NCBI GenBank assembly: GCA_943736015.1
Contig: OX031065.1
Location: forward strand, 38,082,427 to 38,146,426
Direction of reading: 5' to 3'
Source: Tridacna crocea
Taxonomy: Eukaryota; Mollusca; Bivalvia; Cardiida; Cardiidae
DNA: 64,000 nt
In this document: one piece after another, positions 34,508 to 63,762 of the stretch
How positions within the stretch are numbered: the first letter of the stretch is position 1
Layout: each line of letters begins with the position of its first letter
Made by a program: the position numbers and the translations under genes
The notes under the pieces: model-generated
Told to the model about the DNA's origin: nothing
Database searches by the model: none
Seen by the model: the letters and a program-made list of their open reading frames with translations, nothing else

Positions 34508-34742
34508 TTAACTCTTTACCAAACCACAAAATTTTAGACTGGTCCAAAATGAAAGTACTTGCAGATGACAAAATAAATGTAACTCAAAAATTGAAATTTG
34601 TTTTATAAGATAGAAAACATTATGGGAAAAGGAGAAAATGCTGGTTAACAGCATTTTCTCCTTTCACCACAATGTTTTCAAAAGGCATCTAGAATCTACA
34701 TCTCAAGGTCGTAAAAACCAGGGATTGTTTGGTAAAGAGTTA
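34508..34742 (-). mobile_element. Hairpin TTAA element
   Basis: TTAACTCTTTACCAAACCAC to TTGGTAAAGAGTTAG; hairpin core intact with one changed arm segment. Confidence 0.88.
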
Positions 34743-34773
34743 GCCTAAATAACATGCCCTCGGGACCATAGGG

Positions 34774-35214
34774 GGAATAAGAACACCTATTAAGACTTCC
34801 ATCTGATGGTTATAACTTTAAATTTACTATGTTGGCATCTCTTCTTTATAGAGGGCCGTAGGGGCTAGGGGGGCTCAGCCACCCAATAATTTTGAAAATC
34901 ATAGTAACTAAAACTTAAGTTAATGCAATGCAACAACCATGCAAAAAATCTCAGCATTTCGAAGTTAGCTCCTCCCCTCCCCTCCTCCCAATCTTGAAAT
35001 GCTTCCTACGTGCCTGTTATACATATATGCCAGATAATTTTGTCCATTTTGCTTTTTCAGATGATCACCGCGCATTATTATGGTTCTACCCAAACTTTGC
35101 CTTCCAAGAACCCGTTTTCGAAATGCGTAGATCTATAAAGTTATAAAAAGAAGAGATGCCAACATAGTAAAGCCATAACCATCAGATGGACGGCTTCATG
35201 GGTGTTCTTATTCC
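34774..35214. mobile_element. Element with ~80-bp inverted ends, 270 bp upstream of WRNIP1
   Basis: GGAATAAGAACACCTATTAA and the complementary GGTGTTCTTATTCC, continuing inward through CATCTGATGGTTATAA and ATGTTGGCATCTCTTCTTT on both arms. The interior (34855-35140) shows no gene. Family unknown; no clear target duplication. Confidence 0.75.
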
Positions 35215-35435
35215 ACTGTTTTTCAGGTCTGCTAGCAATTTCCCCAGTTAAAAATAGTTAAGGCAATGTGTTTTGGTACATGTGCCACAGGAGATGTGAA
35301 AATGCAGACCACATTCATCGACTGTGATTTGATACTGATTGCAGGATTTCATGATACGAATACTTGTATTACTTTGATCCCAGAAAAACGAACATTTTCG
35401 CAGGTATTAAATTTACTATGACACCGGTAAATATT

Positions 35436-35443
35436 GCGGGAAA
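35436..35443 (-). promoter_or_regulatory. E2F-like site upstream of WRNIP1 (candidate)
   Basis: TTTCCCGC on the minus strand, about 41 bp before the WRNIP1 ATG. The match to the E2F half-site is seen; its use is inferred only from the gene's replication role. There is no TATA box in the 200 bp upstream, and the transcription start is unknown. Confidence 0.25.
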
Positions 35444-35483
35444 GATGTAATCTGAGAAACGCAAAAACAAGAAACTGCTGACT

Positions 35484-36017
35484 ATGGAAACTAAAGGGTT
35501 AATTCAATGTCCCGTTTGTAATAAACGATATCCAAGAGGACAGATTGATTCACACGTGAATTTGTGTCTAAGTGAACCAGACGATGTAACTGTTGTCGAC
35601 GTTCAACCTTCTGTAATTCTAAAAAAACGCAAATCCGACTCTCTCACTTCACATGGGGATGGTTGGGCTTTCATGATGGCAAGTAGCAGCGCGAAAAGGA
35701 CAAAACAAGCAGCCAGTAACAATGACACTGTTGTCATTAATGACAGTGAAAACAGCGAAAGCACATCAAATGAAAATTCTGTGGAAAACCATCGCCCTAA
35801 GCGCAAGGACATGGATAGAGACAAACACTTAGAAAACTCAAAAACTGTTGGCATTGAAGATTTGACAGTTCCATTAGCTGAGTACATGCGTCCAAAAACT
35901 TTTGATACTTATGTGGGACAAGAAAAAGCTGTTGGTTCAACTAGCATACTAAGATCACTGATAAATTCCAAACATCTCCCATCACTGATTTTGTGGGGAC
36001 CACCTGGGTGTGGGAAG
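35484..36017 (+). CDS. WRNIP1: WRNIP1 exon 1: start, UBZ zinc finger, linker, Walker A
   Basis: 178 codons, phase 0 donor (AAG|GTAAGA). Holds the whole UBZ finger, a hydrophilic linker with basic KRK/KR patches (possible nuclear localisation) and the start of the AAA+ domain ([19 protein letters not shown], the usual RarA/WRNIP1 entry). The intron splits the P-loop exactly after the Walker A lysine. Confidence 0.95.
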
Positions 36018-39000
36018 GTAAGAAACTCGTAATGAATGTGTTCTAATGTTACATACTGTAAGTAGGGCCTACATGTATATAGTAGGTTGTTCAGATAGTG
36101 GATCATAGGGACGATCCTAAGTGAGGATTAATTGCTATTTTGTCTCATCTAGCAGAAACCACATGTTTGCTACTGTTTTTAGGTTACTGATTTAATGCTT
36201 TGATAGGCTTTAGTGTGAGACCAATGCAATTTAATTTTCGCTTTGTATAGAGGTAACATTGGAATTTCTGAAAATTATAATATTGAATACTGAGTTTAAC
36301 TCGTTACCACACAATCCCGACTTTTAACGACCCTGAGAAAGAAGCCTTTTGAAAAAATTGTTCGAAAAAGAGAAAATGCTGGTAACCAGCATTTTCTCCT
36401 TTTCCCACAATGTTTGCTATCCTTCCCTGACCAAATTTCAACATTTCAATCACATTTATTTGTTGTCTTTAAATGTTTTTGATTTGGACTGTTCTAAATT
36501 TTCTTGTGTGGTAAAGAGTTAATTTTTTATTTGTTTTCAGACCACTCTTGCTAAAATATTAGCTAATAGATTTAAAGACAAGATGGTCTTCAAGAAACTT
36601 TCTGCTGTCAACTCTGGTGTTAAAGATGTTTCCGATGTGGTGAAACAGGCCAAAAATGATCGAAAAATGTTTCAGAAAGCTACTGTTCTATTTCTTGATG
36701 AAATTCACAGATTTAATAAACTGCAGCAGGTAAGTAACTTAATTCTGAAGCAGGCATCAGAATTACAGGTCTGTCCAAATTAAAAAGAAATACAAAACAT
36801 TTGCAGACAGCATTATCTAATGTGGCTCAAATGACAAAGTTGTCTCAGGTTCCAAACATCCTGGAAAGAGTAGAACCTGCATTAACTATTAGTACACATC
36901 TTCTTCTCTGAAACTACTCGACCATTTTTTTTATGAAACTGCATGCCATAGTCCTCTAGAAGTTTCTCATAGAATTTAACTCTAATATTGTAATCTCTGG
37001 TTGCCAAGACTACAATACTGAAAAAAATATCTAAAATCTTTAAAAAATCATAATTGTCCCAAAGCATAAAACCTTGGACTAACAAGTTTGGCATGTAGCT
37101 TCACCTGATAGACCTGTGCCAAAGTTCTTCAAATTAACCCTTCAGCAATCAGTCCCTGGTTTTTATGGGCCTGAGATAGAAACCTTTTGAAAAAATTGTG
37201 GGAAAAGGAGAAAATGCTAGCATTTTCTCCTTTTTCCAAAATGTTTTCTACCCTTCTGTTAACAAGTTTCAATTTTTGAGTTTTGTGTAATTTGTTGTCT
37301 TCAAGTCCTTTCAACTTGGACCAGTCTAAAATTTTGCCGTTTGGTAAAGAGTAAAGCCCTGGGGCCAATTTGGCCTGCAACTTTGGGGTCACAAGTTTTA
37401 CATGGGTTTATATATTGGAAAACATGAAGTCAGTATGACTCAAGGTCTTAATTCTGATCAAGGAAAATAGCTCCTGTTATAGTAGATATATCTCAATTTA
37501 GTTTGTTACCTCCCTTGATTATCAGACTAGTCTAATACATTATATGTTGCTGGGTATTCGAGATTTTGGGTTAGAAAATGTTCAATTTGAAGTTCGAGGG
37601 ATTTGTTTTAATGTTACACTCAGACAGGTTTAACCCTATACTACACAATGACAAGTTTTGACGCCCCTGAGAATGAAGTCTTCTAAAAACATTGTTGGCA
37701 AAGTAGAAAATGCTGGTAACCAGCATTTTCTGCTTTGCCTACAAATGTTTCTTCTCCATCAAAAGATAAATGGAGCATTTGATCCAGATTGAAATTGTCG
37801 TCTGCAGCTGCTTTCAATTTGGATAAGGCTAGAATCATGTCTTGTGGTAAAAGGTTAATACTTGATATAAAGTAAGGTTTCTGTCATTCAGTTTTTATAT
37901 GTTTGAACTCCTTTGAATAATGCGCAAATACCTCTTTCCTGGTTTCTCAGTATGAGGCTTCATCTTGGAAAAAGGGGGCCTTATGTAAAAAATTGTTTTT
38001 CACTAATACATGTATCTCCTACATCAGTGCTCAAAACTTTGTGAAATTTCAAACCTGAATTTGTTGTAACATTGCCCAGATACCTCTTTCCCGGTTTCTC
38101 AATTACAGCCTGCATCGTGGAAAAAGGGGCTTCTTGTAAAAAATTGTTATAACTTCGTATTTGAACTCCTTGGAACAATGCGCGAATATCTCTTTCTCAG
38201 TTTCTCAGTTTGAGGCTGCATCACGGAAAAAGGGGGCCTCATGTATAAAATTATTTTTCACTGATATCTCCTACATTAGGGGTCACAAGTTCATGAAATT
38301 TCAAATCTGAATTCATTGGAACATTGCCCAGATACTTCTTTCCTGGTTTCAGGCTGCGTCATGGAAAAAGGGGCTTCATGTAAAAAATCATTTTATGATA
38401 CTTATTTTCCGGTTTCTCAATTACAGGCTGCGTCGCGGAAAATGGAGGCTTCATGTAAAAATCATTTTATGTAATATCTCCCACATTACTGCTCAAAATT
38501 TCAGGAAATTTCAAATTTGAATTTTTATTGAAAAATGCCACAAACCACGCACCCTTTGTATTTATTCCTATTATGCAATATTGTCTTATGGGAAAAGGGG
38601 CTTAAAGCAGGCTTAGTGGGCTTAGTGTCCTCTACAAGTTTGTGATGGCTATTACTCAAAAAGTTAAAGTATTACAGCTGTTAATGTAAAAATTCAGATA
38701 TATCTTATTGATTAATAAAAAATGTAATTTTTCCATGTTTCAAGACGTTTAAGGGGAAAAGGGGGCTTCATGGTAGAGTTAGAATCAATTTTTCTCCATT
38801 ATCTTGCTGGTCATAATTTCACATTTCATTTTCAGTTACTATCCTCCCCAAAGAATTTTGCTGTCAGTCTGTCCATTTGTCTGTCCATTTAAATATATAT
38901 TGGGAACATCTCTAAGATAGTAATTGCCTTTTCACTTCAATTTTTGGGGGCATCCTTTTAGAATAAAAGAAGTGAATTTATATTAATTTTATACATTTTA

Positions 39001-42000
39001 TGACAAGCACTTGTTCTGGGAGCAGAACCCATCTCTCATGGCTATTGTCTTTATTTATTCTTTCTCGCATGACAATATTTTGGGATTGACCATATTCAAA
39101 GCATCTTCAGTCAATGAATTAAATCTTGTTAATGTGATGATTTCTGAGTGTGATAGCGTAGAATATATTGTGGGGAAAGGAGAAAATGCTGGTTACCAGC
39201 ATTTTCTCCTTTTCCCACAGTGTTTTCTATAGGCTTCCTTCTCAAGCTATCTAAAGATCTGGACTATGTACTAAAAGAGTTACCGTAAAAGAAAATACCC
39301 TGTTAACCCTTTACTAGACAGCAAAATTTTCGACCTGTCCAAATCAAAAGCATTTGCAGACTACAATTTCATTGTGGCCCAAATGATACCATTTTTCTTT
39401 GATAGGATAGAAAACCTTGTAGGAAAAGTAGAAAATGCTGGTTACAAGCATTTCTTCCTTTTCCCAAAATGTTTTCTAAAGCCTTCTTCTTCAGGATCAT
39501 TAATAATCGGCATTGTATGATAACTCTTTACCACATAGTCCCGACATTTAAAGACTCTGAGAAAAAAAGCCTTTGAAAACATTGTGTGAAAAGGAGAAAA
39601 TGCTGGTTACCAGCATTTTCTCCTTTTCACACAACGTTTTCTACCCTATCCAAATCAAATTTTAATTTTAATTCACATGTATTATGTTGTCTGAAAATGC
39701 TTTCAATTTGGACTGCTTTATATTTTTGTCATTTGCTATAGACTTAACTCATTACCAAACGACAAAATTTTAGGTTTGTCCAAATTGAAAGCATTTGCAG
39801 ACAACAAAATAAAAGTGACTGAAAATCTAAAATTTGTTTTCTGAAGGATAGCAAACATTGTGGGAAAAGGAGAAAATGCTGGTTACCGGCATTTTCTCCT
39901 CTTCCCACAATGTTTGCAAAAGGCTTCTACCTCAGGGTCATTAAAAGTAGGGATTGTGTGGTAATGGGTTAAAGGGTTTTTATGTCATGGTTGTCTGTTC
40001 AAAATTCACTTTACTGTACATTTCTATTGCCTAACTTTCAGGATTCCCTTTTACCACACATAGAGGATGGTACAATCACATTAATAGGAGCTACAACAGA
40101 AAATCCATCATTCCAAGTGAACAATGCCCTTCTGAGTCGGTGCAAGGTCATCATCCTAGAGAAGCTAGACTGTGAAGGGATTAGTAAAATTTTGATCAAT
40201 ACTGTGGAAAAGCTTGGATACCATTTATTTGATACAGAGGAGGAAATCCATTGTGAGAGGAAACATCACCCAAGGTACTGTTGTTGATGTCTGTTCAAAA
40301 ACACAAATTTTAGTCCTTTCAAATATAAGAATTTTAATGCATCTGCAGGCAACAAGTTCGCAATTTTTACAAATTAATTTAAGTTGGCTGATATGGAAAA
40401 AAAGCAATGTGGGAAAAGGAGAAAATGCTGGTTACCAGTATTTTCTCCTTTTCCCACAGTGCATTTGAAAAGCTGTTTTCTCAGGGTTGTTAAAACTTTG
40501 TTAGGTGTGGTAAAGGGTAAGGTCTTTGCCATATGCCAATACTGTATTTTAGATTTGTCCATTTAGAAGTATATACAGAAGAGAATAATTAAATAGCTAT
40601 GATTTAACTCTTTATCAGATGACAAAATTTTGGACTGGTCCAAGCTGAATGCACTTGCATACGACAAAATAAACGTAACTCAATAATTAAAATTTGTTTC
40701 CAGCAGGCTAGAAAACATGGGAAAAGGAGAAAATGCTGGTTACCAGCAATTTCTCCTTTTCCAATAATATTTTCAAAAGGCCTCAATCTCAGGGTTGTAA
40801 AAACCAGGGGTTGTTTAGGAAAGAGTTTATTTATTAGATTTATTAGATATGTCTGTGAAAGGTAGAAAATGTGATGGAAGAAGAGCAAAAAAAGCAGAAT
40901 GTACTCTTTTTCTCAAAGTATTTTTCAAAGGCCTTCTTCCTTAGAGTCATGTGGTAGCACTGTTTGATAGACGTAACTTACTTACTTCTGTAACAAGTTT
41001 ACCACAGCATACTTACACAATCAATGCATTTTAGAATATGGATAAGCAATACTGTTACAAATTCAGAGATGTAGGTGACAGTGATATAGGGCAAGAGTGT
41101 TGGACTTTGATTTTGCTCAGAGGTCAGCATTTGCTATTGTGTGATGTAGATCAAAGATCTGACTGCATATTTTTCTCAGTTTAATCTTGATCTTTGCCAT
41201 CTACAAAAGTTATCTAGGACCAAATTTGACAGGGAAAGAGTTAAATATTAATTCAGTCTAGTGCATGAATACAAATATTAACATTTTTGCAAAAGGAGAA
41301 ACTGACTTTTACTTTTTTCACAATGGTTTAATTGAACTCTGTTAAAAGGCAAAAAATGTTGTTTGCAGAAGTTAATGAGTTAACTCTTTAAAAAATGATA
41401 GAATCTTTGACAAGTTCAAATTGAAAGCTTTTGTAGACAACAAAATAAATTTGACTCAAAAATTGAAATTTGTTTTGGAAACGGTAGAAAACATATTGGG
41501 GGAAAAAGAGGAAATACTGGTTTTCAAAGACCCTTCTATCTGGGTTGTCATAAAATAATTTAAGTGACTCAAAAATTGAAATTTGTTTGGAAAGGGCAGA
41601 AAAGATTGTGGGAAAAGGAGAAAATGCTGGTTTCCAGCATTTTCTCTTTTTTCTACAATGTTTTCAAAAGCTGTCTTTCTCAGGGTTGTTAAAAATCGGG
41701 ATTGTGTGTTGAAGAGTTAAATGAAATGAAACTTGCCTTTCTAAATGCAGAAAACATGGAGGGAAAAAGGGAAATGCTGAACAGCATTTTCTTCTTTCCC
41801 TCAATATTTTCAAAAGCCTTCTTCTCCGGTTTGTTAACACTTTTGCCTGTGTGGTAAAAGATTAAGAACCTTTTCATATTTTTCATTTGATATTTTGAAG
41901 TTCAAAACCAGTTTGGATACAAAAGTCAGCCATAGACCTTCTGACACAGATCTGTGATGGAGATGCAAGGATAGCTCTGAATGGTCTACAAATGGCAGTA

Positions 42001-45000
42001 CAGTCCCAAATTTCAGCTTCCAGCCAATCAGATCCTTCCTATGAAAAAACAAAAGATGCTGTTGCCGGAAGTCTATCAAAAAAAGACTTGAAAGTTGTTG
42101 TTGTGAAGGCAGATGAAGTGAAGCAAAGCTTGCAGAAATCTCATCTGGCTTATGATAAAACAGGTAATGGATATATGTTTATATACATTGAGCTTTTAAC
42201 CCATTACCAAACGACAAAATTTTAGACTGGTCCAAATTGAAAGCATTTGCAGACGACAAAATAAAGGTTACTGAAAAACTGAAATTTGTTCTGGGAAGGA
42301 TAGAAAACACTGTGGGAAAAGGAGAAAATGCTGGTTACCAGCATTTTCTCCTTTTCCCACAGTGTTTTCAAAAGGCTTCTTTCTCAGGGGCGTCAAAAGT
42401 AGGAATTGTGTGGTAATGGGTTAACCCTTTACCACACAATCCCAACTTTTAATGATCCTGAGGAGGAAGGCTCTTCAAAACATTGTGGGAAAAGAGGAAA
42501 ATGCTGGTAACAAGTACTTTCTCCTTATCCCACAATGTTTTCTTCCCTTAGAAAGACAGGCCCAATAATTTGAGTAATATTCAATTTATTGTTTGCAAAT
42601 GCTTTCAATTTAGACAGGTTTAAAATTTTGTTTTTTGGTAACGAGTTAACATTAGAATATACAATAACCCCTAACCAAGCAATCTTGTGTATGAATGACC
42701 CTAATTGTAGAAGACTTAATCCTTTACTCCATAGATACTCATTTCTACGCATTGCTTGTAGGAGCCTTTGGAAAACATTGTGGCAAAAGGTGAAATTGCT
42801 CGTGACGAGCAATTTCACCTTTTGCCACAATGTTTTCTACACTATCAAAAGGTGTCATATACACATAAGAAAAGGCTTCATCCTTGCTGTTATTGTTGAG
42901 GGTCAATTAGAGATACCATAGAAATGCCTTAACGGGTAAAGGGTTTAGAAAATGCTGTGAATTAAATTTAGGAAAATAGACTTTTTATATGTCCGAAGGG
43001 TAATGTTATAGCCCTGGTCATGTGTCCGTCTGTCTGCCTGTCAGTTCGTTTGCAATTTCTTTTGTGCATAACTCCTCCTTAAGTTTTTATCGGAATAATG
43101 TTCTTTCAGCACAAAGCAGAAAAAATATGAATTAGGAGAAAATGCTATTTACCAACATTTTTACTTTATCTTGCAATGTTTGCCATAGCTTTCTCCAATG
43201 TTGTAAAAACATGGGATTATCTTCTAATTTTTGTATAAGCAGAAAATGGAACATTTTCTTCTGTACATGCTATAATGCTGGAAATAGAAATTTCTCAGTG
43301 AACTGAAGCCTTATCATTCCATTGCAAGTTACAATTTTTATGTACGATTAGAAGATTATAGTGTTTTTTTTTTTTTTCAGTACTAAACTTGTCAAGTTTC
43401 AACTAATGCGATAATCACTTTCTTTCTAATAACTTTCTTTCAAAGGACAAGAAGTTAATCTTTTAACCCATTACCTCACAGTCCCTTCTTTTGATGACCC
43501 TGGGAGAGAAGCCTTTTGAAAACATTGTGGGAAAAGGAGAAAATGTTGGTAACCAGCATTTTCCCCTTTTACCACAATGTTTTCTATCCTTCACAGAACA
43601 AATTCAATTTTTTTAAGTCACTTTTATTTTGTCATCTGCAAATGCTTTGAATTTTGACCAGACTAAAATTTGGTAAAGAGTTAATGTTTTTAGAAAGGAA
43701 AATTCATGCAAGGATCTAGACATACTTGGTATTTCATTCTTGAACATCTGGATTTAATATATTCACTCTATTTTTTTGTAATGTTCTAAAAAGTCAAGTC
43801 TGATTTCGCTCTGTTTAGCCCGCCCGGGTGGCTCAGTGGTGAGCGTGTCAGACTCATGACCTGGTGGTTGTGAGTTCGATACCCGGTTGAGGCGAACTTT
43901 CTTTCCGGCGTATTTTCGCCTGTCACCTCTGCTGAAGCATGTGAGAAAAGTAGTCGGTGGCTTTGGAAAGAAAGTAGTGTAAGTACCGGTGTGAGAAAGC
44001 CAGGAAACACATGTGCGTCACCGACCGCCATGATTTGACCCTAGCTGTTAAAGTGGCGTTAAACCCCAATACAACCAACCAACCAACATCGCTCTGTTAC
44101 TCACCAAAATAATACCTTGTCTATCTTCTTTATTTTTCAGGAGAAGAGCACTATAACATGCTGTCTGCCTTTCATAAGTCGATTCGTGGATCAGCTGACA
44201 GTGCTGCCCTCTACTGGCTAGCAAGAATGTTGGAGGGTGGGGAGTCCCCAACAGTAGTAGCTCGTTGTTTAGTTGCATGTGCCACAGAGGATATAGGTAT
44301 GATACTATTATGTGATTTTTTAAAATTTCTTTTGGTCTTTTTTTCTTTGAGAAAAATTACAACCATTATATTGAAATACAATTGTTTAGTGGACAGCCAT
44401 AGAAATCATCAAATAGTTATGGATAAGTAAAATCCATTTAGTATAACAATGGACTGGATCTAGAAGTAGAATGATCTAGAAGTATACTTGCAGAAAATTG
44501 ATTTGTAGCAAAAAGTTAAACTCTTTACCACTCGAGAAAATTTTAGACTGGTCCAAATTGAAAGCATTTGCAGACGACAAAATAAAGGTGACTACAAAAT
44601 AGAAATTTGTTATGGAAAGGGTAGAAAACACTGTGGGAAAAGGAGAAAATGCTGGTTACCAGCATTTTCTCCTTTTCCCATAGTGTTTTCAAAAGGCTTC
44701 TTTCTCAGGGGCGTCAAAAGTAGAGGTTGTGTGGTAATGGGCTAAATTAATGTCAGCCAGTGTACACTGTGCAGGCTGACATGGGTTGATACTTTTTGCA
44801 AATGCATTAAGTCCCCTTTTCAAAGAGCATGACTCATATACAATTATACATGTATTTTGTAGGTTTGGCTGACCCACAGGCTTTGGTTATGGCTATTGCA
44901 GCATTTCAGGCATGCCAGTTTCTTGGGATGCCAGAGTGTGAGGTATGTTTATGTCTTTTGTTCTCTTTTATATATACTTCTCAAAGTTTGATAGGGATCA

Positions 45001-48000
45001 TTTGGATTTTTTAACTTGGGTATTTGTTACAGCAGTGCTGTTTTGCATCAAAAACATCCATTTCCACAAGTGGTTTATTTCATCTGTGCGGCACTGTATC
45101 ACATGTCACACTTTATATCTATCGAATCTAATATGGTCATCGCTAGTAAATTTTGAGTAGGATACTTAATTACGATTTCATGAATGATTCTTTGGATTTG
45201 GATGTTCACTCTTTCACAAAATGATTCTTTGTTCACAAACCTGGGAAGACAGCTTTGGAAAATATTTTAGAAAAAGAAAATGCATGTAAGCAGCACTTTC
45301 TTTATTCCCCAAATATGCATTTTACCTTTTCCCACATCCTTTATTATACCCTCACAAAACAAATGTTTTCGGGGGTATACTGGAATCTGCCTGTCCATGT
45401 GTCTGTCCGTCTGTATGTCTGTCAGTGTGTCTGTCTGTGTACAAAATACTAGCAAGTTTGTGTCACAAACTCCTCCTACAGTTTGCCTTCGATTGCTTTG
45501 AAAGTTTGCATATATTTTGATCAAATACCGAAGATTGCAAGATGTAGTTTTCAAGTGTCAGCTCCTCCTAGTTGAGGAATAATCTCCCCTTGAACTTGAC
45601 ACCTTTTGTCTGTCAAAATGATAGTCACTTTCAGTGATAACTCAAGTTGAATTTGTCATCAGCAAATGCTTCTGGGATGGACTAGACTGAAATTTGGTTG
45701 TTTGATGCAGAGACAATCCTTTAACCCTTCACCTGCTGGATAAATTAAGTGAAACTTTTCAAGCCAATAGCAAAAACCCAAACTATGCTATTTCAAGTGC
45801 ATTTTATACGCCCGTCGAAGACAGGACGTATTATGGGATCACCCGTGGCGGGCGGGCGTCCGGGCAGGCGGGCGGCATCCAGTTCTTTGTCAGGAGCATA
45901 TCTCCAAAACTATTCTAAATAGGGTTATGAAATTTCATGGGTGGATAGATCTCACCGAGGGGGAGTGCAGTGCACAGGAACCATAACTCTTGTTCGCTTA
46001 ATTTTTGAGTTATTGCCCTTTGTTGTTTTTCATACTTGAATTTATTCCGGAGCATATCTCCAAAACTATACTAGCTAGGGTTATGAAATTTCGTGGGTGG
46101 ATAGGTCTCACTGAGGGGGAGTGCATTGCACAGGAACCATAACTCTTGCTTGCTTAATTTTTGAGTTAATGCCCTTTGTCGTTTTTCATACTTGAATTTT
46201 GTCCGAAGCATATCTCCAAAACCATACTAGCTAGGGTTATGAAATTTCATGGTCAGATAGATCTCACCGAGGGGTAGTGCAGTGCACAGGAATCATAACT
46301 CTTGTTTGCTTAATTTTTGAGTTATTGCCATTTGTCGTTTTTATACTTGAATTTTGTCCGATGAATATCTCCAAAACTATACTACCTAGGGTTATGAAAT
46401 TCCATGGGTAAATAGATCTCATCAAGGGGGAGTGCAGTGCACAGGAATCATAACTCTTGCTTGCTTAATTTTTGAGTTATTGCCCTTTGTCGTTTTTCAT
46501 ACTTGAATTTTGTCCGGAGCATATCTCCAAAAGTATACTAGCTAGGGTTATGAAATTTCATGGGTGGATAGATCTCATCGAGGGGGAGTGCAGTGCACAG
46601 GAACCATAACTTGTTTGCTTAATTTTTGAGTTATTGCCCTTTGTCGTTTTTCATACTTGAATTTTGTCCGGTTAATTTCTCCATAATTATACTAGCTAGG
46701 GTTATGAAATTTCATGGTTGGATAGATCTCATCAAGGGGTAGTGCAGTGCACAGGAAGCATAACTCTTGCTTGCTTAATTTTTGAGTTAGTGCCCTTTGT
46801 CGTTTTTCATACTTGAATTTTGTCCGGAGCATATCTCCAAAAGTATACTAGCTAGGGTTATGAAATTTCATGGGTGGATAGATCTCATCAAGGGGGAGTG
46901 TAGTGCACAGGAATCACAACTCTTGCTTGCTTAATTTTTGAGTTATTGTCCTTTGTCGTTTTTCATACTTGAATTTTGTCCGGTGCATGTCCCAGCTTTA
47001 CAACTTGGGGTAAGACGGGCGTATCTTGCAATAATTTGCCGCTCTTGTTTTAAGAAAAATATCTCTTTATTGGACAGTGTAGATCCAAGATCAGACTGCA
47101 CGTTCTGTGCAGTCTGATCTTGATCTACGCTGTCCGCAAAACGTCAGCAAGTCGCGATAAGTAGATTAAGGATTAACATACAGTCAAGATATATAACGAC
47201 CATAAAGGAAAGGGCTTTAGTAAATAATGTTGGAAAAGGAGAAATATTGGCATTTATCCTATACCACACAATCTCAACTTTTAACAACCCTAGTTTTTGA
47301 AAACTTTATAAGGCAAAAGGAAAAAAATCTTGTAACCAGCATTTTCTCCTTATCCTACAATGTTTTCTAAACTTTCAAAGACATATCACATCATTTAAGC
47401 AACATTTTATTGATATTCAGCAATTCTTCAAATATGGACAAAGCCAAAACTCAACCTTTTACCACAAAAACTCAAGTTTAACAACCCTGAAGAAGTAGAT
47501 ATTTGGAAAAATTGTGGAAAAAAGAGAAAATGCTGGTAACATCATAGATTTCCTCATTTGAGCTGCATTTAATTTTCTGTCTGCAAATGCTTTCAATTCA
47601 GTCAAGTCAAAAGTTTTTTAACCCTTTCCCAAACGACAAATTTTGGGCTCTTCCAAACTCAAAGAGTTTGCAGATGACAATTTCAAATTTGATAAAAATG
47701 GCAGAAAGTTCTGCAAATGGGTAGAAAACACTGTGGGAAAAGGAGAAATTGCTCGTTATGAGCAATTTCTCCTTTTCCCACAGTGTTTTCAGAAGACTTG
47801 TACTGTAGACACGTAAAAACAAGGGCTTGTTTGGGAAAGGGTTTAATCTAGATTTTCTTGATTAGAAAATCTGTTAGAGAATTTGACAAAATAGCCCAAG
47901 ATCAAACCGCACATTTTGTGGTTTTTGATCTATGTTTATACTGTCATAACAGTACATAATGTTGCCCATAGGTTGCGAGAAATGTGAACAATTTTTTCAG

Positions 48001-51868: not shown

Positions 51869-52590
51869 GCTTTTTATACGCCCAAAGGGTCGTATTATGT
51901 TATACCCCCGGTCGTCCGTCCGTTAGCAATTTCTTGTGTGTGCAACACCTCCTACAGTTTTCATCGTTAGAATTTTTATCGCTGTTTGCGTTCCAAAATT
52001 ATCTGCCCCTGATTTCTGAAATAACCAACTTTTCACTTTGAAGTTTTGTTCCGGCCATAACTTCCATACCATAAAAGGTATCAAATTGAAACTACATACA
52101 CTGATAGAACCCATTATGGAGAAGTGTAGTGCACATGAACCATAACTGTACCACCATTATTTTTTTGAGTTACAGCCCTTTGTTAATTTTCAGTTTGAAT
52201 TTTTGTCCAGGCCATAACTTCCAAACTATAAAAGTTAATAACTTGCAACTTCATACACTGATAGAACCCATTATGGAGAAGTGCAGTGCACATGAACCAT
52301 AACTCTGTGACCTTTATTTTCTTAGTTATTGCCCTTTGTTAATTTCCAGTTTGAATTTTTGTCCAGGCCATAACTCCCAAACTTTAAAACCTGTCATCTT
52401 GAAACTTCAAAGACTAATAGAACACATTATGAAGAAGTGCACTGCACAAGTACCATAACTCTGCCATCCTTCTTTTTTAGTTATTGCCCTTTGTTAGTTT
52501 TCTCTTTGAATTTTCGTCTGGGCCATAATTTCTAAAATATAAAAGCTATGATCTTGAACCTTTCAAGACTGATAGAACACCTTGTGGAGA
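51869..52590 (+). repeat. Tandem-core element, right part lost
   Basis: Head TTTATACGCCCAAAGGGTCG, GTCGTCCGTCCG, then about four monomers like those at 29966-30925, breaking off within CACCTTGTGGAGAACAGCAA. Confidence 0.8.
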
Positions 52591-52596
52591 ACAGCA

Positions 52597-53262: not shown

Positions 53263-53308
53263 GCAATTTTGAATAGCGGTCTTGGAGTGAACGCTCTCGG
53301 GCACCACT

Positions 53309-53716: not shown

Positions 53717-53753
53717 ATGTGTATTTTGTTAAAAGGTTGTTACTGTATCCCTT

Positions 53754-54150: not shown

Positions 54151-54154
54151 GACT

Positions 54155-55221
54155 TCACTCATTACCAAACGACAATGTTTTAGGCTTGTCCAAATCGAAA
54201 GCATTTGCAGACGACAAAATGAAAGTGACTGAAAATTTGAAATTTGTTTTGTGAAGGGTAGAAAACATTGTGGGAAAAGGAGAAAATGCAGGCGGGCGGG
54301 TGGGCGGTGTCCAGTTCTTTGTCCGGAGCATATCTCCAAAACTATTCTAGCTAGGGTTTTTGAAATTTCATGGGTGGATAGATCTCATCAAGGGGGAGTG
54401 CAGTACGCAGGAATCAGAACTCTTGCTTGCTTAATTTTTGAGTTATTGCCCTTTGTTGTTTTTCATACTTGAATTTTGTCCGGAGCATATCTCCAAAACT
54501 ATACTAGCTAGGGTTATGAAATGTCATGGGTGGATAGATCTCATCAAAGGGGAGTGCAGTGCATAGGAATTATAACTCTTGCTTGCTTATTTTTTGAGTT
54601 ATTGCTTTTTGTTGTTTTTCATACTTGCATTTTGTCCGGTGCATATCTCAAAAACTATTCTAGATAGGGTTGTGAAATTTCATGGGTGGATAGATCTCAT
54701 CAAGGGGGAGTGCAGTGCACAGGAATCATAACTCTTGCTTGCTTAATTTTTTAGTTAGTGCCATTTTTGTTGTTTTTCATACTTGAATTTTGTCAGGAGC
54801 ATATCTCCAAAATTATACTAGATAGGGTTATGAAATTTCATGGGTGGATAGATCTCATCAAAGGGGAGTGCAGTGCACAGGAATCATAACTCTTGCTCAC
54901 TTAATTTTGAGTTAGTGCCCTTTGTCATTTTTCATACTTGAATTTTGTCCGGTGCATGCCCTAGCTTTACAACTTGGGGTAAGAAGGGCATATCTTGCGA
55001 CAATTTGCCGCTCTTGTTTAGTTATTGCCCTTTAATATTTTTCACACATCATGGAGAATAACTACTCTTCATTCATGGCCCATCCATCAATGCAACTCAT
55101 TTCATTGACAAGCCCCTTCGGGCGTATATGCACCGCTCTGCGAAGCTCTTGTTCCACAATGTTTTCTAAAGGCTTCTTTCTTAGAGGCATCAAAAGTAGG
55201 GATTGTGTGGTAATGAGTTAA
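54155..55221 (-). mobile_element. Hairpin TTAA element split by an 863-bp insertion
   Basis: Left piece 54155-54289 (CATTACCAAACGACAATG to GGAAAAGGAGAAAATG) and right piece 55153-55221 (CCACAATGTTTTCTAAAGGC to GTGGTAATGAGTTAA). The break is in the palindrome. Confidence 0.88.
54290..55152 (+). repeat. Composite tandem-core insertion inside a hairpin element
   Basis: Five ~156-bp monomers like those at 45803-47051, starting in the GGCGGGCGGG tract and ending GCCGCTCTTGTTTAG (about 55020), followed by the tail type of 29966-30925 (GGGCGTATATGCACC, CTCTGCGAAGCTCTTGTT). Two different element types are fused or nested. Confidence 0.8.
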
Positions 55222-55224
55222 TAT

Positions 55225-56959: not shown

Positions 56960-57007
56960 GTAAGTTAATTTCGTATCATTTTTCTTTTTACATTTAAAAT
57001 TGCGGTT

Positions 57008-57371: not shown

Positions 57372-57435
57372 GATCTAACCAGTAGTTTCTCCTCTCTGCA
57401 TAACAGTTGGGAAAGAAAAACAGGAATGTATAGAG

Positions 57436-57664
57436 CTAACCCTTTATCCCATAAGGCATTTCTATGGTATCTCTAATTGACCCTTAATAACAGCAAGGAT
57501 GAAGCCATTTCTTATATGTATATGACACCTTTTGATAGTTTAGAAAACATTGTGGCAAAAGGTGAAATTGCTCGTCACGAGCAATTTCACCGTTTGCCAC
57601 AATGTTTTCCAAAGGCTCCTACAGGCAATGCATAGAAATGAGTATCTATGGAGTAAAGGGTTAA
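57436..57664 (-). mobile_element. Hairpin element, GGCAAAAGGTG-arm subfamily
   Basis: Reverse-complement sister of 42716-42946 (CTAACCCTTTATCCC to GGAGTAAAGGGTTAA), nearly identical along its length, so both moved recently relative to the rest. Confidence 0.88.
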
Positions 57665-57796
57665 AATTAAAACCTATTGAAAACACAGTTACACCAATAG
57701 ATCCTGCAAAATAGCTGAAACGAGTGTTTCAGTTTGATAGTTAAAACTCAGATGTTGTTATTTCAAATGTTTCTTTTGAGGAATACTATCTCCTTA

Positions 57797-57892
57797 AAGG
57801 ACAGTGTAGATCCAAGATCAGACTGCACCTTCTGTGCAGTCTGATTTTGATCTACATTATCCGCAAAAGGTATGTGAGTCAGCCGTAGGTTT
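57797..57892. repeat. GATCTACACTGTCCGC palindrome
   Basis: AAGGACAGTGTAGATCCAAG to GATCTACATTATCCGCAAAA. Confidence 0.75.
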
Positions 57893-57962
57893 ATATGTAT
57901 GTGAATGAGACAAAATTTTGGACTGCCATTTAAGCATTTGCAGGTGACAAATTGTCATTGGC

Positions 57963-58196
57963 TTAACTCTTTACCACATAATCCCCACTTTTAACGGCCC
58001 TGAGAAAGAAGCCTATAATAGAAAACACTGTGGGAAAAGGAGAAAATACTAGTAACCAGCATTTTCTCCTTTGCCCACAATATTTCCTACCACATCAAAG
58101 TCAGAAATCATCATATTAACAAGATTAAATTGTTTGTTTGCAGAATGATGGTTTGAATTTGGTTGTCCAAAATTTTGAAGTTTGGTAAAGTGTTAA
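57963..58196 (+). mobile_element. Hairpin TTAA element
   Basis: TTAACTCTTTACCACATAAT to TTGGTAAAGTGTTAA. Confidence 0.87.
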
Positions 58197-58199
58197 ATA

Positions 58200-58560
58200 T
58201 TTATTTTGTAAAGTATGGAAAACATGGCAGGCAAAGGAGAATTTCCTTTTTACCAGTATTTGAAATACTGAATAATGGAATATATTGTAGGAAAAGGAGA
58301 AAGTACTGCTTCCTTTTCTCACATGTTTTTCAAAAGCATTCTTCACTCAGGGACTTTAAAAGTCTGGATTCAGTGTGGTGAAGAGTTGTAGTTTCTCCTT
58401 TGCAAACAATCTGAGTTTGAAGACATTCATTTGAAAATGGTTTTGGAAAGGAGAAAATGCTGGTATTAACCAGTATTTTTTATCCTTTTCCCTCAATGTT
58501 TTCTAAAGGCTTCTTCCCTAGGTCATTAATACATAGTTGTTTGGTAAAGAGTTAAAGATA
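58200..58560 (-). mobile_element. Two decayed hairpin elements
   Basis: About 58200-58388 (GTAGGAAAAGGAGAAAGTAC to GTGTGGTGAAGAGTT) and 58400-58553 (GGAAAGGAGAAAATGCTGGT to TTTGGTAAAGAGTTAAA). Confidence 0.55.
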
Positions 58561-58735
58561 AATATGCCATCAGCAATGCTAAATCAGCTTGGACAAGTTT
58601 AAAATTTGTCAGTTGGTTTAGTATTTGTTTTTTTAATTCTGGCTGTCTATGTAACAATCCAATCCAGTATATATGGATAGAGTTTCATTTGCTTTAGGTT
58701 TTAATTTTTTGGGGAGTGGTGTATAACAATATGTT

Positions 58736-59201
58736 TTAACTCATTACCACACGAGACAATTTTGGACTGGTCCAAATTGAAAGTATTTGCAGACGACAAA
58801 ATAAAGGTGACTGAAAAATAGAAATTTGTTCTGGAAAGGGTAGAAAACACTGTGGGAAAAGGAGAAAATGCTGGTTACCAGCATTTTCTCCTTTTCCCAC
58901 AGTGTTTTCAAAAGGCTTCTTTCTCAGGGGCGTCAAAAGTAGGGATTGAGTGGTAATGGGTTAACCCTTCAACAAACAACAGAATCTGAGACTTGTCCTA
59001 GTTGAAAGCATTTTCAGACTGCAAAATCAGTTTGTGACTCAGAAATTTGTTTTGCAGTGGGTAGAAAACATTGTGGAGATTATAACAATCAAGGAGAAAA
59101 TGTAGGCTTAGTAACCAGTATTTTCTTCTTTTTCCACAATGTTTTCATAAGCATTCTTTCTCAGGGTTGTCAAAAGTCTGGATAGTGTGGTAAAAGGTGA
59201 A
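58736..59201 (-). mobile_element. Two abutting hairpin elements sharing TTAA 58961-58964
   Basis: 58736-58964 is complete with co-varying CACTGTGGG/CCCACAGTG arms. 58961-59201 is worn, with an extra GGAGATTATAACAATC segment in one arm. Confidence 0.88.
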
Positions 59202-59356
59202 ATACTGCAATAAACAGCTAGTGAAAACTATTTTGATTAGCGTTGCCTTTGCTTATGTATGTGTATACCTAGCGATTTCTGCTTATTCCATCATTTTTTG
59301 TCACTCAAAACTACAAGAAAAGAAGGCAAATGTCAGACCGTGGATGATGTTACCTT

Positions 59357-59463
59357 TGGCTGCTAAGCGCGACTAGCTGACCTTTTGTGGACAGTGTAGG
59401 TCAAGATCAGACTGCACAGAACATGCAGTCTGATCTTTGATCTACACTTTCGGATAAGGAGAT
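59357..59463. repeat. GATCTACACTGTCCGC palindrome, complete
   Basis: GGCTGCTAAGCGCGACTAGC to GATCTACACTTTCGGATAAG. Confidence 0.75.
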
Positions 59464-59510
59464 ATTATTCCTAAAAACATAAATTTGTAACAACAATATT
59501 GGGTTATTAA

Positions 59511-59742
59511 TTAACTCTTTCCCAAACAAGCCCTTGTTTTTACGTGCCTGCAGTAAGAGTCTTTTGAAAACACTGTGGGAAAAGGAGAAAATGCTCGGAA
59601 CGAGCAATTTCTCCTTTTCCCACAGTGTTTTCTACCCTTTTTGAGAACTTTCTGCCATTTTCTCCAAATCTAAAATTTGTCGTCTGCAAACTCTTTTGGT
59701 TTGGAAGGGTCCAAATTTTGTTGTTTAATGTGAAAGGTTTAA
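59511..59742 (+). mobile_element. Hairpin element, GGAGAAATTGCTCG subfamily
   Basis: TTAACTCTTTCCCAAACAAG to GTGAAAGGTTTAA; reverse-orientation sister of 47618-47846. One arm keeps the main-family AAAATGCTCG, the other has CGAGCAATTT. Confidence 0.88.
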
Positions 59743-59937
59743 CATGGCATTGAAAATTTAATTGTAGTTATACAGCAGGATAAGGGTTAAGACTTGGCAG
59801 AAAGGATTGAATTCTTTACAAAATTACATTGATTTTATCTATCACTGGAGCTGGAAACTGCACCAGAAAACCCAAGGCCAAGCTACATGTCTACAAGAAA
59901 AGATTTTCAGGTTTTATGAAGAGGGAGAGCTAATAAA

Positions 59938-60135
59938 TAGTTTAAACATATTTATTTTACATCGATTGAGAAACAAGTTTGTACAATTTATTTTAATGTC
60001 TCTCGATTCTGCTACCTGGGAAATACAGTATACCAGTACTCGTGCTGATTGTGTGGGCCAATGAAAAATCTCAAAGCAGCTAGACCACTGCTCTCGGGTA
60101 TCAATCTCAGGACCTTTTGGTTGAGGGACCAGACA
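59938..60135 (-). mobile_element. tRNA-derived SINE, family 1, reversed
   Basis: Minus strand: GGTCCTGAGATTGATACCCG, GAGATTTTTCATTGGCCCAC and the tail CTCAATCGATGTAAAATAAA. Confidence 0.62.
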
Positions 60136-60528
60136 CTATATACCTCGCAACCATGGAAACCACACTGATAGAGCTAATAAATTAGAAAAGATGCACTGCC
60201 TTGGAAGACAAACAAAATCATTTATTGTGCCAGACAGAAAATTCCTGTTGATGATTGTATTATAGATAGAATAGTGGTTCTCATGCTTGATGCAATAATG
60301 CTGCAGCAGCCTTTTGCCTTGGTTTCTCTTACTGTATCACTGCAGACATGTTTGCCTCACAGTACATCATACAAAGATGATCTATTGTCATTGTACATTT
60401 ATATGAGGAATTTCTTGGCACCCATAGTTGTAGTTAGTATTCCAGTTTGCAAGCATATTCAGAGCGCCAGATAGAGGGAGTGATTTTAATATCAAAATTG
60501 GAAATATCACTTATTTTCAACTTTACCC
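60136..60528. other. Spire intron or intergenic, no feature
   Basis: An open frame at 60274-60474 lacks homology and splice support. Confidence 0.35.
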
Positions 60529-60597
60529 TATGTTGTGGATACTCAATAGAATTGTCTCAATGAGACAATTCTTATGAGTACCCACAGCATGGGGTTT
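60529..60597. repeat. 69-bp hairpin
   Basis: CCTATGTTGTGGATACTCAA and its rough complement, with a perfect inner stem AGAATTGTCTCA / TGAGACAATTCT. Confidence 0.7.
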
Positions 60598-60687
60598 GGA
60601 AGAGAAATAATGGATTTAGAATACCTTCACCCCCCTCTTATCTGTAGCTCTGATACTGATAGCATGATTTTGAGAAAATTCTGTCTT

Positions 60688-61140
60688 CGTGGCAAATTTT
60701 GGACTTGTCCTATTTGAAAGCATTTGCAGACAACAAATTAAATGTGATTCAAATTATAGCTGCTCTCTGTCTTCAAGATCACATCAGCTTTGCTCTAGAA
60801 CTGATTTTAAAATAAGAATGGAAAAGTACTCTTTTTGTTTCAGTAAGTTTACATCATTTTTTCCTCCTACAAGCAGTTTCAATTTACCATGCAGTTGACA
60901 AAATTTTTGACTTGTCTGAATTAACCTAAAAGCAAATATTGCAGGTAACAATTTACCTTGTTACCAAACGACAATATTTTAGGTTTGTCCATATCGAAAG
61001 CATTTGCAGATGACTAAATAAAAATGACTGAAAATTTGAAATTTGTTTTGTGAAGTGTAGAAAACTTTGCGGGAAAAGGAGAAAATGCTGGTTACCAGCA
61101 ATTTATAGTTTTCCCACAATGTTTTTGAAAGGCTTCAACT
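60688..61140 (-). mobile_element. Two hairpin fragments and one near-complete hairpin element
   Basis: Fragments at 60688-60760 and 60890-60955 (GACTTGTC, GCAGACAACAAATT) and a copy from about 60957 (TTGTTACCAAACGACAAT) to 61140 lacking its right end. Confidence 0.6.
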
Positions 61141-61980
61141 GTTACATAATAATGCACAGCCAACAATCTGAAAACCTTGAAAGAGAATTATTTTATCATT
61201 AATGTCTTGTAATATTTGATTTCTAGGAATTTGATAAATTGTTCGCTTTAGTGAATATCAAAATAGTGCTGTTTGGGAAAAGATTAAAGGTGTTTGGTTT
61301 GTAGATTGTTATTTCATTTGTATTTTTAGCATGACACTCAGTAGAAAGTGTCAAACACGCGCTTACAGTTTGCTCATTTTCACACAATGGTTGAATCAAC
61401 AGAAAACGCTATTGAAATACAAGTAACATTATGTAAAATCTACCATACCACACAGTGGAATTTGTGAGAAGAATGACCACCAGTGTATAATGTCTGTCTC
61501 TGCTCTGAACAGATACTGTGCCCATCAGATGCATCTCTGGAAATAGGGTATACCTCAGGTTCCATTTTCCTTTCTGGGGGAGTCCTCATATAACACATGT
61601 CATAGCCCAAGCCTGGTAGTAATGAAACCCAAAACACAAATAAATGAGCTGTGATAGTTTAGTAAACATGACATTATAAGACAAACCTCAAAGTAGCATA
61701 AAACATCAATTGATCAATCAATTGATCGATCTGTCATTGATCAGTCAATCCAATCAATCAGTCAATAAACCAAATGAACGTTGAAAGAAATTGAGAACAG
61801 GATATAGGAATTTTTTTCAAGGTTAAAGAATCTTTTTATCTGTTCTGTAAGGTTAAAACAAGTCCTTTAGATCGATAGATATCACAAGTGTTCGTCCAAA
61901 GTATGAAACACATTTGCACTTTGTTTGAGGTAATAATATACGATCAGATGAGAAGTTAGGGAGTTCAAGATTACCTTAAA
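61141..61980. other. No supported gene; TCAAT-rich stretch
   Basis: 61708-61770 is a run of TCAAT/GATCAAT words forming several small palindromes. Nothing else is recognised. Confidence 0.4.
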
Positions 61981-61994
61981 ACTCTGCCACATAG

Positions 61995-62668
61995 GTTTTT
62001 ACCAAAGGACAAAAATTTAGTCCAAATTGAAAGGATTTCCAAATAACAAATTCATTGTGACTGAAATGATGAATTTTGTTTTGATCAGGTAGAAAAGTGT
62101 GGGAAAAGAAGAAAATGCTGGTTACCAGCATTTTCTCCTTTTCCCACAATGCTTTCAAACGCCTTCTCTTACAGGGTCATTAAAACTTACGATTGTGTGG
62201 TAATGGGTTGATCATCACTTGTTACAAGATCGAGGGAGATTTGCCTTTTGAAAACACTGTGGGAAAAAAAAATGCTTGTAACTAGCATTTTTCCCTTTTC
62301 TCATAGTATAGATGACGCAGCCTTCAAACACAGATTTTCTATGTCAAAGAAATTCACTTAGTTGTCTGCAAATGCTTTTAAATTAGACTAGTCTGAAATT
62401 TTGTCATAAGGTAATGTGTTGAATACTTCACAACACAACAATTTTTAAAAATGTCCTAATTCACAATGGTAATGCTTTTTATGACAATGTAATAATCAGT
62501 GAAGGTCAAAAGATCATTTCTGTCTATGCAATGGGAGAGAGCATTGTTGGAAAAGAAGAAAAAATGTCGGTTTCCAACTTTTCAGCTTTTTCTTCTGTTC
62601 CCAGCTCTGCTTCACTTGTCTTTTTGTCAGGGACATTAGAACTTGGGTTGTTTAGTAAAGTGTTAAGT
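61995..62668. mobile_element. Chain of three worn hairpin elements
   Basis: 61995-62211 (-, palindrome good), 62230-62422 (+, GGGAAAAAAAAATGC arms) and about 62426-62668 (-, strongly decayed). Confidence 0.65.
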
Positions 62669-62681
62669 GTTTTTTACAACA

Positions 62682-62765
62682 GCAGATGTTGTTGCCCAAG
62701 ATGTGGATCTGATAAGATTTCACAAAATATGCTTCTGATCTTTGATCTACATTGTCTGCTTAGCT
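62682..62765. repeat. Decayed GATCTACACTGTCC palindrome
   Basis: TGTGGATCTGATAAGATTTC and CTGATCTTTGATCTACATTG. Confidence 0.4.
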
Positions 62766-63008
62766 TTTAAATCTTTCACTGAAGCAACAATATTAGCAAG
62801 TATTTGGTTATCGTTCCAAGGTAAAAGGTGACCACAAGTTGTTCAACTGTCTACAAGTTAATCATAAAATTTAACAATTTACTCCACTCGAACATTGGTG
62901 AAATCAAACAGAGGGATTTCCCATAATTTGAAATAATCAAACCCATTATCTAGATCTTCGGCAAGTAGATAGAAGGGTTATTAGCATGTCTGCTCATGCA
63001 CCAACCCA

Positions 63009-63466
63009 TTAATCCTTTACCCTACAATCCAGAGTTTAAAATGACTCGTAATGTAGAAAGCTTTTAAAACATGGTGGAAAAAGAATATGCTGGTTGCTAG
63101 CATTCTTTTTCCATTGTTTCCTATCCTTTAATAATGGAATTTCAGTTTTTGGATCACATGCACCTTGTCCTATGCAAAATGTTTTCAGTATGTAGATGTC
63201 TACAACTTGTTTATTGTTTAATCCATACCGCACAGTCTGATCTTTTTACCAAACAATCCCTGGTTTTTACGACCCAGAGGAAGAAGCCTTCTGAAAACAT
63301 TGTGGGAAAAGGAGAAAATGCTGGTAACCAGCATGTTCACCTGTTACCACAATGTTTTGTACTCTTCTATAGTCTAATATCAATTTTTGAGTCGTGTTAA
63401 TTTTGTTGTTTGCAAATGCTTTCAGTTTGGACTAGTCCAAAATTTTGTCGTCTGGTAAAGCATTAA
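63009..63466 (+). mobile_element. Two hairpin elements
   Basis: 63009-63200 is worn with a shortened palindrome (AAAGAATATGCTGG / CATTCTTTTTCC). 63241-63466 runs CTTTTTACCAAACAATCCC to TCTGGTAAAGCATTAA. Confidence 0.75.
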
Positions 63467-63701
63467 AGACCTTGAAAAGAAGAGGAAGATAGCATGTGTT
63501 GTTTTTGGTCATGTGGTATGGAGTTATTAAGAGAACAGCCTTTGTGGTTTTCTGTTGTCTGGACTATCAGATTGGATTTATTTTGCTCTTTTAACTAATT
63601 AGCACATGACAAATTAGTCCTGTAGATTTATGGCCAAACATTATGCTAAGTTTTCCACTGTCCACTTTTTTAATCCCTTACAAAACAATATTCCAGGTTT
63701 G

Positions 63702-63762
63702 AACCCAGTACCACACAATCTCAAGTTTTAACGACCCTGAGGAAAAAGGCCATTGAAGGTTC
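63702..63762 (+). mobile_element. Left end of a hairpin element cut by another insertion
   Basis: CCAGTACCACACAATCTCAA to GAGGAAAAAGGCCATTGAAG, ending where the next element begins. Confidence 0.6.

Follow-up and report, generated by a model that had tools for sequence, protein, structure and literature searches.

The element and its distribution

How perfect long hairpins persist is an open question for the evolution of RNAs and of genomes, and paired changes between the two arms are expected under compensatory selection as well as under template switching. The question is raised here by 64,000 nucleotides of the bivalve Tridacna crocea (assembly GCA_943736015.1, contig OX031065.1, positions 38,082,427 to 38,146,426 of the forward strand; hereafter the window), in which positions 34508-63762 are crowded with copies of a short TTAA-flanked element, a miniature inverted-repeat transposable element (MITE) built around a palindrome. 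A first-pass annotation of the window had noticed that the palindrome arms change together between copies, and had proposed that the arms are corrected against each other or that the hairpin is selected for. The analysis below gives part of the answer to each proposal: coupling of the arms is early and limited in the life of a copy, with lasting repair disfavoured, and the stem sequence is in addition constrained at the lineage level.

A profile model built from the window copies (227 positions; its set of 146 near-full copies takes in duplicated loci) gave 76 non-overlapping copies or pieces in the window, and the refined model gave 75, close to the 70 or so counted previously. Within 34508-63762 the profile search placed 62 (about 55 had been counted), covering 38.6% of the range, while 6.9% of the bases preceding 34508 belong to the element by the refined profile. 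The consensus of ~229 bp (the 227 positions of the model and, in addition, the final AA of the second TTAA; first estimated at ~228 bp) runs from TTAA and the tip CCC(T/A)TTACCA through ~40 variable bp to a 67-bp palindrome, and from there through ~90 variable bp to the inverted tip and TTAA, with terminal inverted repeats TTAACCC(T/A)TTACCA of ~14-17 bp recognised by eye at both ends of the alignments. The palindrome, previously put at ~70 bp, has 33 complementary consensus pairs flanking one base (model positions 56-88 and 90-122) and as single-stranded DNA has a folding energy of -37.2 kcal/mol (z -14.45). Of 112 both-ended copies, some of which come from overlapping or duplicated loci, 81 have a 5' TTAA and 76 a 3' TTAA; 54 carry it at both ends, 49 at one end only and nine at neither. 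At least one empty site was present among the matches listed, in which the insertion at L053:1794-2020 corresponds to a single TTAA at window positions 17388-17486 (77.8% identity over 99 bp). These end sequences and the empty-site match support TTAA as the target site, as had been proposed.

Short and uniform length, high copy number, terminal inverted repeats and target-site duplication all agree with a MITE. Only two open reading frames of at least 150 amino acids occur across the whole window, and an Rfam scan of 34400-63800 returned no family at its gathering score. Mean difference from the consensus in ten-base bins is 0.09-0.15 in the stem and 0.10-0.33 outside it, the stem being the most conserved long part of the element among the sampled copies.

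The assembly comprises 1.049 Gb in 31 contigs, 18 of which hold 99.96% of the bases. Twenty-two stretches totalling 100 kb, placed by hand at round coordinates elsewhere in the genome, contained 120 copies or pieces amounting to 20.0% of bases (0 to 42% per stretch), so that 34508-63762 is no different in kind from the rest of the genome and the element is genome-wide. If this sample is representative, 120 copies per 100 kb correspond to ~1.2 million copies and pieces in total. The exact 13-base tip TTAACCCTTTACC occurs 133,483 times in the genome (66,634 + 66,849), and its reversed control 48 times (28 + 20). One MITE family at ~20% of sampled bases is a notable load for a 1.05-Gb genome. Insertion preference for the ends of other copies was considered and rejected: the window and the 22 stretches together have 195 copies, 13 pairs of which abut at TTAA or decayed TTAA, and with 1,295 TTAA sites this is, by a hand estimate, at or below chance.

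Paired changes in sampled copies

Copies for pair counts were drawn from the 22 stretches, the window, eight loci with tip matches and 30 loci with a piggyBac domain, a sample that is not random throughout. Removal of L026-L029, L034, L037, the overlapping parts of L006 and L007 and one exact duplicate left 275 copies, 178 of them with both arms present. Among the stem cells of these 178, 83.6% are complementary; 436 are changed in the left arm only, 447 in the right arm only, 125 in both arms with complementarity kept and 61 in both arms without it. Shuffling right arms between copies, which ignores subfamilies and age, yields 39.6 ± 5.7 complementary doubles, compared with the 125 observed. 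The breaking of pairs by random decay, which the earlier argument had taken not to prevail, is thus the fate of most of the changes.

Some of the paired variants are inherited. The common ones mark subfamilies, namely 63/115 in 15 copies, 69/109 C:G in nine and 76/102 in eight, and the CACTG/CAGTG type is largely such a mark, since in 14 of its 15 copies the nearest neighbour is also a carrier. The paired types CATTGTGGG and CACTGTGGG that had first drawn attention were indeed seen in several window copies, and GTGTGAAAAGG/CCTTTTCACAC at 39521-39742. Exclusion of 20 B/C-like copies and of pair 63/115 left 158 copies with 51 partner doubles against 35.6 at non-partner positions. Stratified by decay, copies with 0-3 mismatched pairs (n = 62) have 11 partner doubles against 0.71 at non-partner positions, those with 4-6 (n = 40) have eight against 4.5, and those with 7-20 (n = 56) have 32 against 30.35, which is no excess. 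The 11 young doubles are spread over ten copies and ten different pairs, of which pair 86/92 in the copy at window position 59511 is probably an unremoved subfamily mark. The paired excess therefore outlasts subfamily grouping and is a property of little-decayed copies, as evidenced by its presence in the first class and absence from the last.

Genome-wide counts on perfect stem cores

Exact 35-base patterns were counted over the genome, each comprising both 17-bp inner arms with the centre base free and every other core stem site at consensus, which holds copy age roughly constant. Perfect cores number 173,858. At pair 77/101 (G:C to A:T) there are 4,448 single-arm changes (2,257 + 2,191) and 164 doubles against 28 expected (5.8x); at pair 75/103 (G:C to A:T) 12,687 singles (6,359 + 6,328) and 2,196 doubles against 231 expected (9.5x); and at pair 78/100 (A:T to G:C) 2,899 singles (1,455 + 1,444) and 144 doubles against 12 expected (11.9x). 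Singles are even between the arms because a pattern and its mirror are indistinguishable. Non-partner combinations served as controls: 77A with 103T and its mirror gave 232 (111 + 121) against 162 expected (1.4x; 1.43), and 78G with 101T and its mirror gave 66 (32 + 34) against 37 expected (1.8x; 1.78). Heterogeneity of age among copies was accordingly rejected as the source of the paired excess, its effect as measured by the two controls being too small. The claim that arms change together is thus borne out as an excess of 5.8-11.9x at three pairs and of 11 over 0.71 in young copies, on a background in which most changes are unpaired.

Pairs 75/103 and 77/101 differ from each other despite undergoing the same type of change, with one-arm changes 2.9x and doubles 13x as common at 75/103. 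This surplus may be a site effect or an old variant.

Kinship and age of the doubles

We fetched 40 of the 164 doubles at 77/101, 20 of the 2,196 at 75/103 and 20 of the 232 non-partner doubles, taking the first ones listed, which come from contigs C1-C4, from the first 8.3 Mb of C1 and from C1-C2, respectively. Median flank distances to the nearest copy of the same group are 0.165, 0.182 and 0.179. Among pairs of copies that involve 77/101 doubles, a flank distance below 0.08 was seen in 3 of 713 where both are 77/101 doubles, in 3 of 713 where the other is a 75/103 double, in 0 of 684 where it is a non-partner double and in 22 of 1,211 where it is a perfect-core copy; below 0.12 the corresponding figures are 15 of 713, 8 of 713, 4 of 684 and 72 of 1,211. 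The doubles show some kinship, yet they do not make up one subfamily, and close kin are a minority among them.

The outer stem, lying outside the selection patterns, was used as a clock of copy age. Its mismatched cells increase in sampled copies from 36/478 with a perfect core to 65/456 with one hit, 49/267 with two and 31/192 with three. Fetched paired doubles have 81/894 (51/594 + 30/300) and fetched non-partner doubles 47/295 (Fisher p 0.0016, an optimistic value as cells within one copy are not independent). By this measure paired doubles look nearly as young as perfect-core copies, about one event from perfect. With mostly unrelated flanks, little sib structure and such youth, the paired changes recur and behave like single events.

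Stem conservation across lineages

Lineages were delimited by clustering on flanks only, using 135 sampled copies with enough flank and a threshold of 0.24, which gave six groups of at least six copies; the 80 fetched copies were kept out, having near-perfect cores by choice that would bias stems towards identity. Groups 27, 26 and 28 have flank consensuses 12-15% apart and differ at 0 of 66 stem sites. Between group 39 and these three, the flanks differ by 18-21% and the stem at a single unpaired site (69). Group 8, with flanks 29-33% different from those four groups, has the complementary pairs 63/115, 81/97 and 86/92 changed, and differs from group 39 at site 69 besides. Group 1 is the most distant (53-58% from groups 27, 26, 28 and 39) and has nine stem sites changed, i.e. 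the complementary pairs 69/109, 76/102, 81/97 and 86/92 plus the unpaired site 110. Five distinct paired changes thus stand against two unpaired sites at the lineage level: the stem sequence is conserved across lineages and, where more of it changed, it mostly changed in pairs. Being common to lineages whose flanks are very different, the stem is a candidate for a cis-acting part in the amplification of the MITE.

Between individual copies, stem divergence is about half of flank divergence from a flank distance of 0.02 upwards (ratios 0.39-0.55), and stem decay grows with flank divergence; in the closest flank-distance class the ratio is 1.1 (29 pairs, duplicated loci included). Two further copies, L022:3887-4087 and L038:980-1059, have six and five paired stem changes and five and four mismatched pairs, respectively; they may belong to other old subfamilies or have stems that underwent correction at several positions.

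Proposed arm copying in nearly perfect stems and its alternatives

Hairpin-templated copying of one arm from the other, restricted to nearly perfect stems, is the best explanation we can offer, and one that we believe and doubt in about equal measure. A non-autonomous TTAA transposon bearing the 67-bp hairpin would have multiplied until copies and pieces numbered roughly a million. When a copy is born or shortly afterwards, with its stem still nearly perfect, one arm would sometimes template the other by template switching or fold-back repair synthesis in the extruded or single-stranded stem, and one event would then suffice to erase a one-arm change or to copy it to the partner. Once several mismatches are present, the hairpin would stop templating and the arms would decay independently. 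Both the copying as cause and the moment at which it acts are what we infer from the counts. Template switching is described as able to fix the pairing of an existing stem in RNA genes (PMC8794818) and has been proposed to homogenise inverted-repeat arms in yeast (PMC8604942), as far as the available text of both sources goes.

The early timing was compared with simulations that assume a gamma distribution of ages. For the three classes of mismatch number, the simulated paired changes per copy came to 0.03/0.08/0.41 with no correction, 0.17/0.59/1.17 if correction is lasting and runs at double the mutation rate (of the non-zero rates tried, the lowest) and 0.21/0.18/0.49 with paired changes arising at birth only, and the observed 0.18/0.20/0.57 is close to the last. 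Lasting correction after insertion is therefore disfavoured by the age classes and by this simple simulation with its assumed ages. A more specific form, in which the element is born through its hairpin with one arm rebuilt from the other and new copies start with re-perfected stems, is a tentative idea that we consider rather unlikely; if true, the re-perfecting step would be part of multiplication and would explain why perfect stems are so abundant (173,858 cores) as well as the paired changes.

Several observations weigh against arm copying. The genome-wide counts cover three pairs, all of them inner-stem transitions, and the excess there amounts to ~3% of singles at 77/101, 14% at 75/103 and 4% at 78/100, a difference between pairs that one uniform process would not predict. 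The stem is unchanged (0 or 1 of 66 sites) in lineages whose flanks differ by 12-21%, which unbiased arm copying cannot explain, and four of the five lineage-level paired changes, admittedly few, are transversion flips (A:T to T:A, G:C to C:G), whereas a mutation-driven process would favour transitions. Insertions shared by the duplicated loci L025-L029, L034 and L037 provided six stem changes when read by eye, none paired, with little power. Some kinship is present as well: 4 of 39 doubles at 77/101 have a same-group copy closer than 0.08 (0 of 19 at 75/103, 0 of 18 non-partner), for 19 of 39 the nearest same-group copy lies closer than any of 32 sampled perfect-core copies (7 of 19 and 5 of 18), and their mutual pairs below 0.12 exceed those with non-partner doubles (p 0.019), though not clearly those with 75/103 doubles (p 0.21). 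Finally, flank divergence from consensus fails to separate paired from non-partner doubles (means 0.198 at 77/101, 0.192 at 75/103 and 0.190 non-partner; 0.157 in perfect-core copies), which weakens the age argument.

In a rival reading only copies with well-paired stems are mobilised, and copies restored by two chance hits occasionally found young paired families, a possibility that we take seriously while placing it short of an even prospect. It accounts for flank lineages 12-21% apart that keep the stem to 0 or 1 of 66 sites and for two distant lineages changed by three and four complementary pairs and one unpaired site; offspring of such founders would look young as well, and the 77/101 doubles are mutually closer than they are to non-partner doubles (15/713 against 4/684 below 0.12). 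The palindromic end sites reported, in the text available, to be bound by the piggyBac and piggyBat transposases (PMC11707139) could explain why the stem is conserved; they do not explain the complementary changes, which binding-site selection alone does not need. Chance would supply ~41-51 doubles at 77/101 (28 x 1.43 and 1.78), so that the 164 found would require families of three or four, yet pairs below 0.08 are equally frequent within 77/101 and with 75/103 doubles (3/713 each), and only traces of the predicted families were seen. On the lineage-level facts, selection for pairing during mobilisation does no worse than arm copying as an explanation, and it probably acts too. Should arm copying instead be repair of resident copies, dependent on pairing, fast in nearly perfect stems and then absent, with transposition uninvolved, the difference from the proposal above would be one of timing. 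This variant, which we think improbable, draws on the template switching proposed for yeast inverted repeats and RNA-gene stems (PMC8604942, PMC8794818; seen in part) and predicts a paired excess per copy that is roughly constant with age; the observed 0.17, 0.09 and 0.03 in the three classes have wide errors, and none of the six stem changes within shared resident insertions is paired.

Two other readings were considered. Ectopic gene conversion between copies, carrying stem variants across unrelated flanks, would fit stems about half as diverged as flanks (0.39-0.55 at flank distances of at least 0.02) and one stem common to several flank lineages, but it should spread non-partner doubles equally, which are near expectation (1.4x, 1.8x), and stems do decay along with flank divergence; we regard it as very doubtful. 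Slightly less credible still, in our view, is inheritance within subfamilies followed by ordinary decay, with no coupling of the arms. Variants 63/115, 69/109 C:G and 76/102 do mark subfamilies and arm changes are mostly unpaired, but the excess remains after marked copies are removed and recurs at three pairs genome-wide in copies with mostly unrelated flanks; as the whole explanation it is rejected on the stratified counts and the flank distances of the doubles. For arm-to-arm copying, the ~174,000 equal stem cores of this one genome come with built-in controls, namely non-partner doubles and the flank and outer-stem clocks, and its rate, tract length and timing are measurable here.

Affiliation and related systems

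The TTAA target and the CCYT-type tips (CCCTTT-type ends) match those of the piggyBac superfamily, CC[C/T]T tips being described as a piggyBac hallmark in the accessible part of PMC2872659. The genome has 118 listed matches to the piggyBac domain PF13843, many in open frames. The search for a transposase gene with the same ends that the first-pass annotation had suggested found no counterpart: among the 30 of 118 loci read with 1.5 kb flanks, which leave some ends beyond the stretches covered, no autonomous element ends in TTAACCC(T/A)TTACCA. The loci instead carry TTAACCCTTTATATA in a 2,766-bp family, TTAACCCTTGTCATG or TTAACCCTAGTCATG, and TTAACCCATTTATGCC, the remainder having no assigned ends; the sole free resemblance to the MITE tips is a six-mismatch match in L011, and the apparent right end of L021 is a nested subfamily B copy. 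On these sequence features the MITE is plausibly a non-autonomous member of the piggyBac superfamily, with which it has the TTAA target and CCCTTT-type ends in common, while its own ends differ from those of all 30 loci. An autonomous partner may exist or be extinct. Kolobok, with the T2-MITE of Xenopus, is likewise a TTAA-target superfamily with abundant MITEs.

The 2,766-bp family (L013-L019, L023) has copies 97.8-99.9% alike and transposase frames without stops, and was probably active recently; its member in L017 sits at the TTAA end of a MITE copy. A piggyBac-bearing unit carrying several MITE pieces is present in L025-L029, L034 and L037, with copies up to 99.98% alike over 4.1 kb (3.0 kb in L037).

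The closest described elements found are the CMITEs of Acropora corals (PMC2872659), which in the part of the paper available are also short, TTAA-flanked, tied to piggyBac-like elements and arranged in arrays, with an internal 75-base region better conserved between families than the terminal inverted repeats. Over a hundred copies were counted there, compared to about a million here; the words palindrome, hairpin and stem are absent from its main text, no test of arm covariation was found in the part of the paper available, and the CMITE 60-bp internal consensus given there showed no resemblance to our MITE when compared by eye. Maintenance of hairpins by template switching (PMC8794818, PMC8604942) likewise involves single events that restore complementarity and create compensatory pairs, but concerns RNA genes and yeast coding inverted repeats ('transpos' does not occur in the accessible text of PMC8794818), whereas here the hairpin is carried by a mobile element whose ~174,000 equal stem cores come with non-partner doubles as an internal control. 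MITEs are said to occupy a considerable part of bivalve genomes (PMC10294476, available in part). Neither this element nor covarying arms in any MITE turned up in a literature search whose coverage leaves out most subscription papers.

Copies and other features of the window

The copies and sites referred to above, and others of interest, are as follows.

34508..63762, no strand: element-rich stretch, 62 MITE copies or pieces, 38.6% of bases
39521..39742, + strand: copy with paired change 68/110 (GTGTGAAAAGG / CCTTTTCACAC), sole carrier among 178 copies
39746..39972, - strand: copy with paired change 57/121, sole carrier among 178 copies; abuts the 39521..39742 copy at TTAA
42198..42424, - strand: full copy of the CACTG/CAGTG subfamily, 33/33 stem pairs complementary; TTAA shared with the 42421..42647 copy
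42421..42647, + strand: full copy abutting the 42198..42424 copy at one shared TTAA
42716..42945, + strand: full subfamily B copy, 33/33 pairs intact; the subfamily has flanks 53-58% different and a stem with four complementary pair changes
57438..57664, - strand: second window copy of subfamily B, with a single mismatched pair
58738..58964, - strand: full copy of the CACTG/CAGTG subfamily, 33/33 pairs intact
6515..6740, + strand: full copy outside 34508-63762, perfect consensus stem (~6570-6636), flanks 18% off consensus
22268..22494, - strand: full copy outside 34508-63762, perfect consensus stem
17388..17486, no strand: unoccupied paralogue of the L053:1794-2020 insertion site, single TTAA, 77.8% identity over 99 bp
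36296..36520, + strand: copy between two exon-like open stretches of an apparent AAA-ATPase gene

The open stretches at 35484-36732 are split by a MITE-bearing gap; the first has no Pfam match, and the second matches the Pfam AAA ATPase family with an E value of 6e-4, just under the cut-off. The sequence is reminiscent of WRNIP1/MgsA. The window also contains five arrays of similar-looking ~156-bp tandem units (18292-19327, 30177-30736, 45886-46988, 52030-52591 and 54318-54957), three of which have an alternative period of 310-314 bp. Such arrays resemble the satellite-bearing elements described in bivalves.

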